DNA of 20,664 bases from a virus. How positions within the stretch are numbered: position 1 is the stretch's first letter; every line of letters starts with the position of its first letter. The translations under genes were made by a program, and so were the position numbers. The DNA is taken from IMG/VR virus record IMGVR_UViG_3300025896_000229, positions 1 through 20,664 of that record; one strand, written 5' to 3'. Positions 1,243-10,473 of the stretch are shown here, in pieces. The notes under the pieces are model-generated. The model saw only the letters and a list, made by a program, of their open reading frames with translations, searched no databases and was not told the DNA's origin.

Positions 1243-1271
1243 TTGACAGACGTTCAAGGATAAGTTATAAT
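1243..1271 (+). promoter_or_regulatory. Perfect sigma70 promoter for the 405-aa unknown gene
   Basis: TTGACA at 1243-1248 and TATAAT at 1266-1271 are both exact consensus hexamers with the ideal 17-base spacer. The predicted start is near 1278, giving a leader of about 23 bases with GGAG at 1292-1295 before the ATG at 1301. A promoter this strong should be read by unmodified host RNA polymerase right after infection, which marks the downstream gene as early. Confidence 0.88.
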
Positions 1272-1300: not shown

Positions 1301-2518
1301 ATGGCTACTGCAACTAAGAAAAAACCTACCCTTGTAAGGAAAACACGGGTCACTGCCAAGCAAGTGAACGCTCATCGTACACGTGGTGGCGCCGCCAAAG
1401 ATTTTAGCCCATCATGGGAAGGCGCTGCCGAGTTTAACGAAGAACAGTTTACACGACAGTTCCGACGTTCAATGGACTATTATCGTCTTGAAACCAATAC
1501 CAAAACCCTGCGCCCAAAAGTAGCAGAGTGGATGGAAGCTAATGGCTACAAAAAGGATGCCATTAACGAATTCCGCAAGCTAAAAGACAGTAGAGTAAAC
1601 TCCACCTTGTGCGGGGTAGCCGCTTGTTTGGTGCGCGGCATGCCTCCTGTATACGAAGGTTTTAATAGTGGGCGTGACTCTGCAGAATGGTTAAAGGCTG
1701 AAATTGCCAAGGCCATGAAAGACGGCAAGAATGATATTGACGAGACTGAAACTGAAAAAGTTGTTCCAGTAGTAAAGAAGGAAACTATACAAGATCGCCT
1801 GGCAGAAAAGTTCAGCGAAACAATGGGCGATATTGAAGGCGCCATTGATGACTACATTACTGAAGGCAAAGATCCTAAAGTATTTCATCTCTTGTCTATT
1901 GCAAATATTGCAGTACAGTATTCGTCCAAGATTGTTGACTTGATTCAGCCTAGGATCAACGAACTAAACGAGTTGCTGGAAGGCAAGGACAGCCAACTAA
2001 TGGAAGCATACAAGCACTTGGGCAAGCGTGAAGTTAAGGCATACATTAAAATGTATGAAGCAATCATCAACGATGCAATGGCTTATAAGACTAGCAAAAT
2101 TGCAACTCGTGCTAAACCAAAACGCAAGCCAGTGCCACCAGAACGTCAAGTCAAGGGATTGAAGTACCTTAAGGAATTCGCAGAACTTGGACTTAAAAGT
2201 ATTAACCCAACTGAGATTCTCAACATGAGCGAGTTGTGGACTTACAATACCAAGACCCGCAAGTTGGGTCGCTTTGTAGTCAGCATGCACGGTGAGATGT
2301 CAATTAGTTTGCTGGGTGTCAAAGGTAGTGCTATCATTGGATTTGATGAAATCAAAAGCACTTGCAAAACTCTGCGTAAGCCAGCAGAAAAACTAGCCGA
2401 GCTCAAGACACAGGGCAAACCTGGACTTCGTAAGTTTATGGACTCTATTAAAAGTGTTGAGACTCGACTAAAAGGACGAATTAGTCCAGATACCATCCTG
2501 CTTCGCGCACTCAAGTAA
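1301..2518 (+). CDS. Unknown 405-aa phage protein, early-promoter driven
   Basis: I do not recognise this protein. The N-terminus (about 1-35) is basic and low in structure, rich in Lys, Arg and Thr. The middle (about 45-130) contains RQFRRSMDYYRLET and a NEFRKLKDSR helix region, followed by a charged linker near 140-160. Residues 160-280 look largely helical, and a second basic stretch (KPKRKPVPPERQ) lies near 269-280. The C-terminus has a compact segment around residues 310-350. There is no signal peptide or membrane segment, so it is probably cytoplasmic, and the basic patches would suit nucleic-acid binding (inference). The start is fixed by GGAG six bases upstream and by the perfect sigma70 promoter. 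Although flanked by structural genes, it has early rather than late control, so a role in host takeover or DNA metabolism is more likely than a virion role. Confidence 0.8.
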   Translation: MATATKKKPTLVRKTRVTAKQVNAHRTRGGAAKDFSPSWEGAAEFNEEQFTRQFRRSMDYYRLETNTKTLRPKVAEWMEANGYKKDAINEFRKLKDSRVNSTLCGVAACLVRGMPPVYEGFNSGRDSAEWLKAEIAKAMKDGKNDIDETETEKVVPVVKKETIQDRLAEKFSETMGDIEGAIDDYITEGKDPKVFHLLSIANIAVQYSSKIVDLIQPRINELNELLEGKDSQLMEAYKHLGKREVKAYIKMYEAIINDAMAYKTSKIATRAKPKRKPVPPERQVKGLKYLKEFAELGLKSINPTEILNMSELWTYNTKTRKLGRFVVSMHGEMSISLLGVKGSAIIGFDEIKSTCKTLRKPAEKLAELKTQGKPGLRKFMDSIKSVETRLKGRISPDTILLRALK

Positions 2519-2528
2519 GGACTTGCAA

Positions 2529-2561
2529 TGCAGTCTTCGGTAAATAACACTGGAGACTGCA
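2529..2561 (+). promoter_or_regulatory. Hairpin around the gp13 late promoter, sequestering the ribosome site
   Basis: TGCAGTCTTC (2529-2538) can pair with GGAGACTGCA (2552-2561) over ten base pairs with a single G-U. The 13-base loop is GGTAAATAACACT, so it begins exactly with the late promoter octamer. The 3' arm contains the gp13 ribosome site GGAG (2552-2555), seven bases from the ATG. RNA entering from upstream would carry both arms. RNA started at the late promoter (predicted near 2552) would lack the 5' arm. Confidence 0.7.
2539..2546 (+). promoter_or_regulatory. Late-type promoter octamer of gp13
   Basis: CGGTAAATAACACT is the same extended motif found at the 363-aa gene and at gp19. 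The predicted start six bases past the octamer (about 2552) leaves a leader of roughly 11 bases with GGAG at its very 5' end. The octamer sits in the loop of the hairpin at 2529-2561. Confidence 0.62.
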
Positions 2562-2562
2562 C

Positions 2563-3312
2563 ATGCAAAACAATACAACTTACCGTTCTAAAGCGGCAAA
2601 AACTATCGAGCTAATGCTTGGTGGTGGCTTAGTAGATGTCGAACTAGACAAAGAACACTACGACATGGCAATTGATAAAGCCATTGGAAAATATCGTCAG
2701 AGATCCAGCAGAGCAGTAGAAGAAAGCTTCATGCTACTAAATTTAACCGCTGGTAATAGTTCTTACACATTGCCAGACGAAGTTATTGACGTTAGAGTTG
2801 TTTATCGCTCCAGCGCAGGTGGTATTGGTACAACAAGCACAACGTTTGAACCGTTTGAAGCAGCCTACTTAAACATGTATATGCTCAACGCCGCACGTGG
2901 GCAAGGATTAGCATCATTTGAATTATACATGGGACAGCGTGAGTTGATGGCAACTATGTTTGGCGCCCATGTGACATTTACATGGAGTCAGACTAGTAAG
3001 TTATTGAATTTGCATCGTAATATCAAGGGTGAAGAATCAGTACTGCTACACACTTACAACTATCGCCCAGATGAATCCCTGTTACAGGATACTGGTTCGG
3101 GACCTTGGATTCGAGATTATGCAACAGCTACAGCAAAAATGATGCTTGGTCAGGCACGTAGCAAGTTTGCACAGTTGGCTGGCCCACAAGGTGGTGTTAC
3201 GTTAAACGGCACCGACCTAATTGCACAATCACAATCAGAGATAGAAAAGCTAGAAGACGATCTGAAAACGTTTGCTGATGGTGGCACGCCACTTGGCTTC
3301 ATCTTTGGCTAA
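2563..3312 (+). CDS. 13: Neck protein gp13 (T4-like)
   Basis: 249 aa. T4 gp13 forms, with gp14, the neck that seals the packaged head and joins it to the tail. The N-terminal part has a helical ELxKEHYDMAIDKAIGKYRQRSSRAVEESFMLL pattern (residues about 27-60), followed by YTLPDEVIDVRVVYR near 73-87. This order of a short helix bundle, then a TLP-D-x-V-x-D-V strand, is how I recognise gp13-type head-tail connector proteins of marine T4-like phages. The C-terminal third is helical, with IAQSQSEIEKLEDDLK near 221-236. It is shorter than T4 gp13 (about 309 aa) but close to the marine forms. Start: ATG seven bases after GGAG and just downstream of a late-type promoter, which fits its expected late expression. 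It is followed by a metabolic gene with its own early promoter. Confidence 0.72.
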   Translation: MQNNTTYRSKAAKTIELMLGGGLVDVELDKEHYDMAIDKAIGKYRQRSSRAVEESFMLLNLTAGNSSYTLPDEVIDVRVVYRSSAGGIGTTSTTFEPFEAAYLNMYMLNAARGQGLASFELYMGQRELMATMFGAHVTFTWSQTSKLLNLHRNIKGEESVLLHTYNYRPDESLLQDTGSGPWIRDYATATAKMMLGQARSKFAQLAGPQGGVTLNGTDLIAQSQSEIEKLEDDLKTFADGGTPLGFIFG

Positions 3313-4027: not shown

Positions 4028-4035
4028 GCTAAATA
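4028..4035 (+). promoter_or_regulatory. Proximal late-type promoter of the tail sheath gene
   Basis: GCTAAATA lies 45 bases before the sheath ATG. The predicted start near 4041 gives a leader of about 39 bases with GGAG at 4067-4070. A small dyad AGGG/CCCT lies in the leader, and ATATCT/AGATAT (4033-4038, 4069-4074) could pair only in read-through RNA. Confidence 0.55.
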
Positions 4036-4079
4036 TCTTTGTAGAGGGTATGATCCCTTAGATTACGGAGATATATAAA

Positions 4080-6470
4080 ATGGCTCAATTAAGTTCCCCA
4101 GGTGTAAGTGTTTCGATTATTGACGAAAGCGCCTACGCATCTGCTGGCACTGGTACAGTTCCAGTTATTGTTTTAGCAACACGTTCTAATAAAACGTCAC
4201 CAGACGGTTCAGTTGCACAATACACCACTGCACCTTTTGCTAAAAAACCACTTATTGTTACAAGCCAACGCGAGTTGGTACAATTATATGGTGAACCAAA
4301 GTTCACTATTGTTGACGGTACACCTGTACACGGTCACGAATTAAACGAATACGGCTTGCTTGCCGCTTATTACTACCTTGGTATTGCTAACCGTGCTGTT
4401 CTAGTACGTGCAGACTTGAACATGGAAGAATTAGAGCCACAAGCATCTGCCCCAACTGGCCCAGCAACAAATGGCCAATATTGGTTAGATACTGGCGCAA
4501 GCTCGTTTGGCCTGTTTGAAGGCAATGGCACTACTTGGGTAGCCAAGTCAGTATATGTAACAGACGGCGAACCAGGCGCAGGCGAAGGTGCAGTAGGCGA
4601 TTATGCATTAGATGCAACCAGCATAGTTAAGACATTCTACAAAAAAGTAGCGACAGAAGCTGGCAGCGTATGGAAAGCAGTTACATCTGGCAACCTAAGC
4701 GCAACAGTTACAGTTGCCCCTCACTATTCTGTACCAACCCCAGGTAACGGCGCAGTCTGGTTTAAGACAACAAGTCCAAATTCTGGCTTGTCTTTAAAAG
4801 TTAAAAAATACAATGCTTCTACACAAAGCTGGACAGCACAAACTGTTGGCGCAGGAAATGTAGATCAGTTAGTTGGCTATACAGATAATGCAACGGCTAC
4901 CGCAGCATTTGGTACCAAGTTGGTAACCAACAGCATTTATATTCAGTTTGCAAATGCTAATAGAGCCGAATTTGAAATCAAGCGTTACAATGGTTCTACA
5001 TGGGCTACTCCTACAGCAAGTGCAAGCGATACAGCACCAACAGGCGCACTACCAGACGGCAAGTTATGGTATGATGCAGGTAGCCTGGTTGACATTTATG
5101 TCAAAGCAACAGTCAATGATACTCCAATTTGGAAAGCAGCCAGTCAAATTGATGTGAACACAGAAGAACCAACTGAACCAAATTTTGGTGATGTATGGGT
5201 TGACACAAATGACATGGCCAACTATCCAATGCTAAAAGTATGGGATGGCAGTGCTTGGGTAGGCAAAGACAATGCAGATCAAACAACACAAGATGGTGTT
5301 TTATTTGCTGACTTGACAGCCGACGCAGGTGATGTAACTGGCGCCGAAGGTGGCGCAAACGCCATGGACGATCAAGCTCCTAACCCAGCTTACTTCCCAG
5401 AAGGTATGTTGTTATGGAACAGTGCAGTAAGCTCTGGTAACGTAAAAGCATGGAATGCCGCAGAAGGTTTCTGGCAGACAGAATCTGGTAACGTTGATAG
5501 CGGCCCTAAAGCAGGCGCTCCTTACATGTTTGATAAAGCTCAACGCCGTGTAGTTGTTAAGCGTTTGCAAGCAGCATTGACAAGCGGTGACGAACTACGT
5601 GCAGAAACATTGACTTTCAACGTTATTGCAACGCCTGGTTATGTTGAGTGTATTGACGAGATGGTTACATTGAACTTGGATCGTAAAGAAACAGCGTTCG
5701 TTATTGCTGACACTCCAATGAAGTTAAGCAACAAGACTACTGATGTTGTTAACTGGAGTCTAGGTACACTAGCCGGTACAAACGGCGCAGACGGTTTAGT
5801 AACACGCAGCGGCAGCGCAGCGATTTATTACCCAAGCGGTTTGTCAACTGACTTGAGCGGTAATGATGTTGCAGTTCCTGCAAGTCACTCTGTTCTACGT
5901 GGCATTGCATACAACGACCAAATTGCTTATCCGTGGTTTGCTCCAGCTGGTTTGACACGCGGTGCTCTAAGTGGTATCAGTAACTTAGGTACCGTTAATG
6001 CTGAAAACGAATTTGTTCCATTGGCATTGAACCAAGGTCAACGTGATGCATTGTACGAAAAGAATGTTAACCCATTGGTTAACTTCCCGGGACAAGGTTT
6101 ATACATTTGGGGTCAAAAGACTCTATACCCAAGCAGCTCTGCACTTGACCGCGTTAACGTTGGTCGCTTGTTGGCTTACTTGCGTGAGCGTTTTGATGTA
6201 ATTGCTCGTCCGTTCATCTTTGAACCAAACGATCAACGCACACGTAATCGCATTTTAGGTGTGTTCAACGCCTTCTTAGCAGACATGTACTCTAAACGTG
6301 CAGTATATGACTTCTTGGTAGTTTGTGATGATACAAACAACACTCCTGCTCGAATTGATAGAAACGAGTTGTACATTGACGTGGCAATTGAGCCAGTTAA
6401 GGCAGCTGAATTTATCTACATTCCGGTTCGTGTTGTAAACACTGGCGCGATTGCCAATGGTACACGCTAA
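4080..6470 (+). CDS. 18: Tail sheath protein gp18 with a large repeat-bearing insertion
   Basis: 796 aa. The sheath forms the contractile outer sleeve of the tail and drives the tube through the host envelope. The N-terminus LSSPGVSVSIIDES is the standard sheath opening. NRAVLVRAD near 104-112 and the C-terminal block near 650-796 (YIWGQKTL, NVGRLLAYLRERFDVIARPFIFEPND, IPVRVV) are the conserved core that makes the helical sheath. It is longer than T4 gp18 (659 aa). The extra length lies at residues about 120-470, the region that in T4 forms the outward-facing domains. Here it holds five to six degenerate repeats of about 35 residues ending in Trp. ATG 4080 follows GGAG at 4067-4070. Two late-type octamers precede it, and its stop codon overlaps the octamer of the tube gene. 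Confidence 0.95.
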   Translation: MAQLSSPGVSVSIIDESAYASAGTGTVPVIVLATRSNKTSPDGSVAQYTTAPFAKKPLIVTSQRELVQLYGEPKFTIVDGTPVHGHELNEYGLLAAYYYLGIANRAVLVRADLNMEELEPQASAPTGPATNGQYWLDTGASSFGLFEGNGTTWVAKSVYVTDGEPGAGEGAVGDYALDATSIVKTFYKKVATEAGSVWKAVTSGNLSATVTVAPHYSVPTPGNGAVWFKTTSPNSGLSLKVKKYNASTQSWTAQTVGAGNVDQLVGYTDNATATAAFGTKLVTNSIYIQFANANRAEFEIKRYNGSTWATPTASASDTAPTGALPDGKLWYDAGSLVDIYVKATVNDTPIWKAASQIDVNTEEPTEPNFGDVWVDTNDMANYPMLKVWDGSAWVGKDNADQTTQDGVLFADLTADAGDVTGAEGGANAMDDQAPNPAYFPEGMLLWNSAVSSGNVKAWNAAEGFWQTESGNVDSGPKAGAPYMFDKAQRRVVVKRLQAALTSGDELRAETLTFNVIATPGYVECIDEMVTLNLDRKETAFVIADTPMKLSNKTTDVVNWSLGTLAGTNGADGLVTRSGSAAIYYPSGLSTDLSGNDVAVPASHSVLRGIAYNDQIAYPWFAPAGLTRGALSGISNLGTVNAENEFVPLALNQGQRDALYEKNVNPLVNFPGQGLYIWGQKTLYPSSSALDRVNVGRLLAYLRERFDVIARPFIFEPNDQRTRNRILGVFNAFLADMYSKRAVYDFLVVCDDTNNTPARIDRNELYIDVAIEPVKAAEFIYIPVRVVNTGAIANGTR
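4449..5477 (+). repeat. Degenerate ~35-aa Trp-ending repeats inside the sheath protein
   Basis: Five clear units and one weak one share the pattern P-x-x-x-G-x-x-W/Y-x-D/K-T ... hydrophobic strand ... G/N-S/T-x-W. They start near residues 124 (NGQYWLDTG ... TTWVAK), 219 (GNGAVWFKT ... QSWTAQ), 318 (PDGKLWYDAG ... PIWKAA), 362 (NFGDVWVDTN ... SAWVGK) and 432 (PEGMLLWNSA ... GFWQTE). A weaker unit lies near 160-200 (VGDYALDAT ... SVWKAV). They diverge in DNA as well as protein, so they are old rather than recent tandem copies. One more copy ends the 363-aa virion protein on the opposite strand. Confidence 0.75.
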
Positions 6471-9328: not shown

Positions 9329-9835
9329 ATGACTAAGAAATTAGAAGAAGTGTTTGGTTTCCCACCTATTGAGGAAGCAAATGCTTTGGACCACACAATA
9401 CCAGAAGTTTCTGAAGAAATTCAGGAACAGCTTGTTGTAGCTGCCGCTACAATTGACATGGCAAACCGTGTCGATATTGCATTGCCCACTGTCACAGACA
9501 TGGCAACAGCAGAGCGTGAGTTAGACAAGTTAGCAAACATGGCGCAAGAACAAAGCGAACGTTTGATGGATTTGGGATTCAATGTTGACGATAGAAATGC
9601 AGGCAAGATTTTTGAAGTTGCCGCCCAACTGTTAAAAACAGCAGTTGATGCTAAGACAGCCAAGATAGACAAAAAGCTAAAAATGGTTGAATTGCAGTTG
9701 CGTAAAGCACGTATGGATCGGGATGAAAAAGGCTCAGATTCTAACAATGTTTTAGATGCAACCGAGGGCGGACTGATGGGAAATCGCAATGATATCGTGC
9801 AAGCAATCCTAAAGAGTGTCGGTCATAATAAATAG
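9329..9835 (+). CDS. 16: Terminase small subunit gp16
   Basis: 168 aa, matching T4 gp16 (164 aa). The small terminase forms a ring that regulates the packaging motor and recognises DNA for cutting. The central part, TAERELDKLANMAQEQSERLMDLGFNVDDRNAGKIFEVAAQLLKTAVDAKTAKIDKKLKMVEL (about residues 53-115), is a long helical coiled coil. Its R-x-x-E-V-x-x-x-L-L-K-T-x-x-D-A-K/N pattern is the gp16 core signature in T4-like phages. The ends are more variable. Start: ATG 9329, 15 bases after gp4. The upstream AAGTAAG is only a weak ribosome site, so coupling to gp4 is likely. Its stop codon overlaps a late-type octamer. In T4 gp16 and gp17 are adjacent, but here two genes separate them. Confidence 0.8.
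   Translation: MTKKLEEVFGFPPIEEANALDHTIPEVSEEIQEQLVVAAATIDMANRVDIALPTVTDMATAERELDKLANMAQEQSERLMDLGFNVDDRNAGKIFEVAAQLLKTAVDAKTAKIDKKLKMVELQLRKARMDRDEKGSDSNNVLDATEGGLMGNRNDIVQAILKSVGHNK
9827..9834 (+). promoter_or_regulatory. Late-type octamer before the 205-aa gene
   Basis: AATAAATA overlaps the gp16 stop codon (TAG 9833-9835). The predicted start near 9840 would leave about 16 bases of leader with AGAGGA at 9843-9848 and the ATG at 9856. The match is weaker because TAATAAATAG can arise simply from an A/T-rich gene end. Confidence 0.4.
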
Positions 9836-9855
9836 TCTTATGAGAGGATTCAATT

Positions 9856-10473
9856 ATGCCCACACTATTAGAGTATATTAATCAGTTACAGCGCGAACAC
9901 CGCTATCGTGTTAAGATGGCCTTCCAACCATCAGACCGCCAACTTGAAACTTTGGAGCGTCATATGAAGAAGTATGATGCACTAGAAGTTGGCCGCCCAG
10001 AAAAGCTAATGCTACAAGCACAACCAATGGATTTCCCGCAATTGGGTGGACATGAAATTGTTATTGTGGATGTGGTAACACGCTTGCCTGTTAGTGGCCC
10101 AACATTAGAAAACGAATTACGTAGTTTAATGTATATTGCTGATGGTCTATTAAAAGTATTTGGTCGTGACGAGCCAATTGAACAGCAAATCGAAGCAGAA
10201 GCAGATGTGAATACAGAAGCTAAACTTTGTGTTGACTATTCAGATTCTGAAGCAAACAAAGTAAGTGCCGATGAAGCCGCAGGCGACAAATACAATCAAG
10301 AGATGTTGAGCGCAGCCGACAAGTCTGGTAAAGAGCGTAAAGCTAACATTACACAACAGGTTGGTAAAATAACTTCGGGACCTGACTATACAGGCCCAGC
10401 TGATGGGAAGACAAGCCCAGTTGGCACTAAACAAAATAATATTGCTGTTCCAGGCAAAGGAGATAAGAAATGA
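9856..10473 (+). CDS. Conserved-looking unknown 205-aa protein in the packaging cluster
   Basis: The first 110 residues look like a folded domain: a helix YINQLQREHRYRVKMAFQPSD, then LERHMKKYDALEVGRPEKLMLQ, then the segment AQPMDFPQLGGHEIVIVDVVTRLPVS (about 55-80). I believe similar proteins occur in other marine T4-like phages as unnamed virion-associated proteins, but I cannot name it. From about residue 110 it becomes charged and low-complexity, ending in a Gly/Lys/Pro-rich tail (KITSGPDYTGPADGK). AGAGGA gives a good ribosome site. It overlaps the next start by four bases (ATGA), so the two unknown proteins are translationally coupled and probably act together in head assembly or packaging (inference). 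Confidence 0.72.
   Translation: MPTLLEYINQLQREHRYRVKMAFQPSDRQLETLERHMKKYDALEVGRPEKLMLQAQPMDFPQLGGHEIVIVDVVTRLPVSGPTLENELRSLMYIADGLLKVFGRDEPIEQQIEAEADVNTEAKLCVDYSDSEANKVSADEAAGDKYNQEMLSAADKSGKERKANITQQVGKITSGPDYTGPADGKTSPVGTKQNNIAVPGKGDKK

Follow-up and report, generated by a model that had tools for sequence, protein, structure and literature searches.

A hairpin combined with a late promoter is predicted to gate translation of the gp13 neck gene in T4-like jumbo phages

The stretch of viral DNA analysed here, called the window, comprises 20,664 nucleotides (positions 1 to 20,664) of the IMG/VR record IMGVR_UViG_3300025896_000229. It carries a gene for a gp13-like protein that shares 38-45% identity with annotated jumbo-phage neck proteins; this gene is surrounded by a divergent virion gene, an ORF of 405 aa, and genes for a dNMP kinase, the tail sheath and the tail tube (Table 1). 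Named phages gave no match to the window region in megablast, and protein searches were therefore used instead. In phiM12, OC and DLP_6, homologues of the 405-aa ORF have genes of nucleotide metabolism and other early types as neighbours; this is consistent with early expression of the ORF without proving it. The subject of this analysis is a hairpin between the stop of the 405-aa ORF (2518) and the gp13 start (2563). At 1233-1271, a minus-strand late promoter GGTAAATA belonging to the virion gene at 101-1192 stands back to back with the plus-strand early promoter, only 2 bp away, and this pair is kept in relatives.

Table 1. Features of the gp13 locus in the window
Feature	Position	Strand	Description
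Early promoter, host sigma-70 type	1243..1271	+	TTGACA-N17-TATAAT; 12/12 consensus match
Upstream ORF, 405 aa, probably early	1301..2518	+	phrog_11903 (unknown function), E 6.7e-54
Outer helix strand	2523..2527	+	UUGCA; pairs with UGCAA 2564-2568 in the minimum-energy structure of the read-through RNA
5′ arm	2529..2538	+	TGCAGTCTTC; pairs with 2552-2561; confined to read-through RNA; upstream of the predicted late start
Loop, 13 nt	2539-2551	+	GGTAAATAACACT
Late promoter, T4-type -10 octamer, inside the loop	2539..2546	+	GGTAAATA; overrepresented in the window
3′ arm	2552..2561	+	GGAGACTGCA; opening GGAG (2552-2555) is the gp13 Shine-Dalgarno
gp13-like neck / head-tail adaptor Ad2, controlled gene	2563..3312	+	phrog_211, E 1.4e-36

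An earlier note on this DNA had described a 10-bp stem, a 13-nt loop that opens with GGTAAATA and a GGAG in the 3′ arm, and all of these parts were confirmed from the sequence, with one G-U pair in the stem. In the minimum-energy fold three more pairs are added (GGU with ACU, the GGU being supplied by the promoter), so that the stem reaches 13 bp and the loop shrinks to AAAUAAC, while the outer helix UUGCA/UGCAA, less conserved than the core, takes in two bases of the gp13 AUG. The leader folds at -26 kcal/mol, compared with -9.65 +/- 2.3 for shuffled sequences (z -7.1), and 0/200 shuffles were as low.

Nearly all close relatives have the exact TTGACA-N17-TATAAT at ~1.3 kb before gp13, and the sequence of its spacer varies among them. 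The same note had placed a strong early promoter at 1243, aimed at gp13 across an interval free of terminators. The promoter and its direction were borne out, but the interval does contain one forward terminator-like match, weak and within the upstream ORF (2254-2270). From the sequence, gp13 thus appears to lie downstream of a conserved sigma-70 consensus without an effective terminator. On the late side, GGTAAATA occurs four times in the window versus 0.6 expected, and NNTAAATA, mostly in the forms GG, GC, AC or CA followed by TAAATA, is enriched 5′ of ORFs on the coding strand of related contigs (52 vs 15, 36 vs 11 and 24 vs 3). This motif of the related contigs resembles both the T4 late octamer and its Aeh1 variant, as given in PMC2988020, where the T4 octamer spans -13 to -6. 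Applying the T4 spacing to the GGTAAATA octamer gives a predicted late transcription start at ~2552, the first base of GGAG. A gp55-like sigma (phrog_234) was sought in related contigs, the window itself being a fragment, and was found in six of the 12, the five longest included (E 1e-25 to 2e-27). A search for the gp45 family matched nowhere, and its controls were likewise without a match; gp45 and gp33 are undetected in CBB (PMC5259590).

To compare the two transcript forms, as the earlier note had proposed, we calculated the opening energy, the cost of freeing the Shine-Dalgarno and the start codon. The forms separated strongly: three read-through RNAs of different length, among them the complete transcript from 1243, require 15.6-18.2 kcal/mol for opening, and late RNAs with starts at 2550-2554 require 2.0-2.2 kcal/mol. 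Altering the 5′ arm alone lowers the cost to 3.8 kcal/mol. The same calculation on T4 controls gave, for read-through and late RNA, 14.1/2.5 for e, 11.5/1.8 for 49 and 12.8/0.3 for I-TevII, versus 3.0/2.7 for the ungated gene 18; with a read-through leader cut as short as in the T4 controls, the values for the window gp13 were 18.6 vs 2.1. In the upstream-initiated RNA the Shine-Dalgarno and/or start codon are therefore predicted to lie inside a stable helix. The claim that late-start RNA loses the 5′ arm also stands in this model, as the octamer in the loop is placed such that the predicted late RNA begins beyond that arm.

Comparison with relatives reveals compensatory changes in the stem, excluding an absence of covariation. 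Of the cells in 26 distinct close leaders, 92% are paired, and 32 have changed on both sides, compared with 13.5 in shuffles (0/500) and no more than 14 after sliding of the partner. Within the core of eight pairs (columns 18-25), the sole non-Watson-Crick cells are 27 sense-strand G-U. The structure has thus been conserved through compensatory change.

Beyond these close relatives, the stem itself turns over. L039 has the same architecture with a different stem and the promoter GATAAATA, while in the L052 group the promoter doubles as the 5′ arm and the start codon is buried instead. Named jumbo phages carry unrelated stems at the same place of the gp13 leader: CCCCTAAATATG/CATGTTTAGGGG in GAP32, GCACCCC/GGGGTGC in Munch, AATCCTC/GAGGATT in XaC1, ATAGCACCTC/GAGGTGCTAT in K64-1 and AAGCACCTC/GAGGTGCTT in Hallingskeid. 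In several named jumbo phages gp13 is preceded by a run of same-direction genes (nudix hydrolase, glutaredoxin, macrodomain). The suggestion that the device was simply kept from T4 is not supported: no late promoter occurs within 110 nt upstream of the start of T4 gene 13, which points to a separate deployment rather than a trait inherited from T4. The differences in stem sequence and geometry between lineages likewise indicate that the device has been remade or turned over repeatedly. In another lineage (L227, L219, L236, L237), GATAAATACTCGTATG lies near the gp13 start and the predicted late RNA begins at or beside the ATG, which suggests that gp13 mRNA is leaderless there.

Whether the hairpin is present appears to depend on gene order. 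In total, 146 distinct gp13 leaders were collected, and the usable ones were clustered by single linkage at 80% protein identity, giving 41 clusters. Each leader was compared with 60 shuffles, for which the smallest attainable p is 0.016. Mean opening energy is 11.9 kcal/mol in the 31 clusters with a co-directional upstream gene, 20 of which beat their shuffles at p<=0.05; in the 10 clusters with a divergent one, the mean is 4.7 kcal/mol and none does so. The early-minus-late opening difference separates the two arrangements with p = 1.4e-4, a value to be read with the clusters not being phylogenetically independent. An earlier version based on pairing probability gave 20/31 co-directional vs 1/10 divergent; because that statistic, which took the larger of Shine-Dalgarno and start-codon pairing, had a high null (~0.65), it was replaced by opening energy. 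The Shine-Dalgarno filter took most of the divergent loci of the L227 group out of the refined test, and L250 and L261 stayed in. In L042, gp13 keeps GGTAAATA, but the early ORF and early promoter are gone, a divergent virion gene lies directly upstream, and the hairpin has decayed to a short remnant stem. An intrinsic terminator match precedes the late promoter in L078 and L079, which have no significant gate, and L197 has a terminator match upstream as well. Some co-directional clusters nevertheless have a weak hairpin or none, such as the L224, L208 and L268 groups. In these sequences, the gp13 hairpin appears mainly at loci whose immediate upstream neighbour is an early gene with the same orientation.

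The proposition that every late promoter has such a hairpin was rejected, since significance is reached by 17% of 176 late-promoter leaders and by 5% of controls; the 17% counts repeated gp13 copies, and the excess is modest and gene-specific. Tail-tube leaders have no such hairpin tendency. The endolysin gene (phrog_894, Peptidase M15) carries a putative gate in three relatives (G009 L157:5381-6112 and the homologues in G001 and G003), where hairpins around CATAAATA, with a different stem in each phage, hide the Shine-Dalgarno, and predicted opening costs are 12.6-15.8 early vs 0.7-3.5 late. These genes are likewise preceded by same-direction genes, and their leaders parallel that of T4 lysozyme. 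Three other leaders were noted. In the tail sheath leader (window 4028-4080), GCTAAATA and the next bases can pair with TACGGAGATAT in such a way that the 5′ arm stops close to the late start; the shape is conserved and beats shuffles only in some relatives. At 9790-9856 of the window, a virion protein gene has AGGATT at its Shine-Dalgarno, which pairs with AATCCT 5′ of AATAAATA, a pairing that is conserved in most relatives and mostly weak against shuffles. In L101, L113 and L119 (G006, G005 and G008), a conserved GGGAGTATATACTC or near-identical leader stands before a large gene, ~60 nt past the late promoter; as it remains in the late RNA, it is not an early-off/late-on switch.

We consider it very probable that the region 2529-2561 unites a late promoter with a translational gate acting in cis. 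Early RNA from 1243 would run through the 405-aa ORF into gp13 and fold a hairpin of 10-13 bp, which would hide the Shine-Dalgarno together with some of the start codon and thereby keep gp13 from being made early. Later, RNA polymerase with a gp55-type sigma would start at ~2552 from GGTAAATA, and the resulting RNA, without the 5′ arm, would form no hairpin and be translated. The hairpin, its compensatory conservation and the position of the promoter within it are seen in the sequence, as are the conserved early promoter and the link to upstream direction; from them we infer early read-through in infected cells, the position of the late start, and the block and release of translation. The predicted late mRNA, starting right at the Shine-Dalgarno, may have a poor leader. 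Ribosomes that terminate on the upstream ORF, whose stop is as near as 10 nt to the hairpin, could also loosen its foot.

The same inverted repeat could instead act in the DNA, as an operator or a cruciform that aids opening of the late promoter, with RNA folding being incidental. Its symmetrical placement around the promoter in close relatives would fit, but most late promoters lack a repeat, as the modest excess and the tail-tube leaders illustrate, and the promoter falls inside an arm in other lineages. In addition, the stem-core departures are exclusively sense-strand G-U, with no other mismatch, and PMC2988020 describes T4 late promoters without conserved upstream sequence. We regard a DNA-level role as very unlikely. 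Equally unlikely is that the hairpin serves mainly in processing or stability of the early transcript, through RNase III-like cleavage or as an end-stabilising stem, rather than as a ribosome block. A long stem right after an ORF can indeed stabilise or be cleaved, and stems here reach 14-15 bp, but stability requires neither a hidden initiation site nor a position spanning the late start, whereas the 3′ arm holds the Shine-Dalgarno in most of the strong cases and the L052 group buries the start codon. A search of Rfam with the gp13 leader also gave no match.

The least probable of the three alternatives is that the hairpin couples gp13 to the upstream ORF, being opened by finishing ribosomes and setting level rather than timing. 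In its favour, the distance from the ORF stop to the stem is 10 nt, and in relatives mostly 9-11 nt, which puts the stem close to the edge of a ribosome that is terminating. Against this, a stem at 10-nt spacing is at or just past the ribosome footprint, and the internal late promoter, which is unneeded for coupling, would remove the structure entirely.

The mechanism of such a gate is already known from T4 e, soc, 49 and I-TevI. In gene e, the late promoter lies beside or within the 5′ strand of a hairpin that sequesters the Shine-Dalgarno, so that long early RNA is blocked and late RNA is free (PMC3014915). The same early-off, late-on hairpins occur at T4 soc, 49, I-TevI, I-TevII, I-TevIII and segB, and at Aeh1 mobE (PMC3014915, PMC2988022), in agreement with what the earlier note had stated for e and soc. 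The gp13 leader shares the structural features of the e/soc/49/I-Tev class, as judged from its sequence, and in I-TevII (CCTCGTA-TAAATATGAA-TACGAGG) the late promoter is within the stem-loop, as at the window gp13. Gene e differs in that it concerns lysis timing rather than a neck protein, and in its TATAAATA promoters and stem; the others are decoration protein, nuclease and homing endonuclease genes, whereas gp13 is a deeply conserved virion connector gene. Among jumbo phages, GAP32 and CBB have an ATAAATA-type motif upstream of structural genes, and CBB has a gp55-like sigma (PMC5259590); the GCTAAATA and ACTAAATA found in this analysis are similar to the Aeh1 a/gC at -13/-12 (PMC2988020). 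The excerpted promoter descriptions of GAP32/CBB and Aeh1 (PMC5259590, PMC2988020) make no mention of a gp13 leader hairpin, and a limited search of the open-access literature returned no report of a gated gp13. What is new is the switch on a virion connector gene, its wide conservation with turnover of the stem, its dependence on gene order, and its presence at the endolysin of three relatives.

The known T4 cases amount to a few genes from a single phage group; in many uncultivated and named jumbo phages, a virion connector gene appears to be protected by the same logic. Unrelated stems, and loss without an early neighbour, amount to a natural experiment on the purpose of the switch, that of silencing read-through. 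It is somewhat better than an even bet that in giant T4-like phages the switch is a general solution to early-to-late junctions, re-arising with new sequences when a late gene falls co-directionally behind an early one and decaying once that arrangement is lost, in which case gene order alone would predict its carriers, gp13 and endolysin first. Isolates that carry the switch (GAP32, Munch and K64-1) can be used for tests, and in unculturable phages it offers a way to infer early and late gene classes from sequence only.
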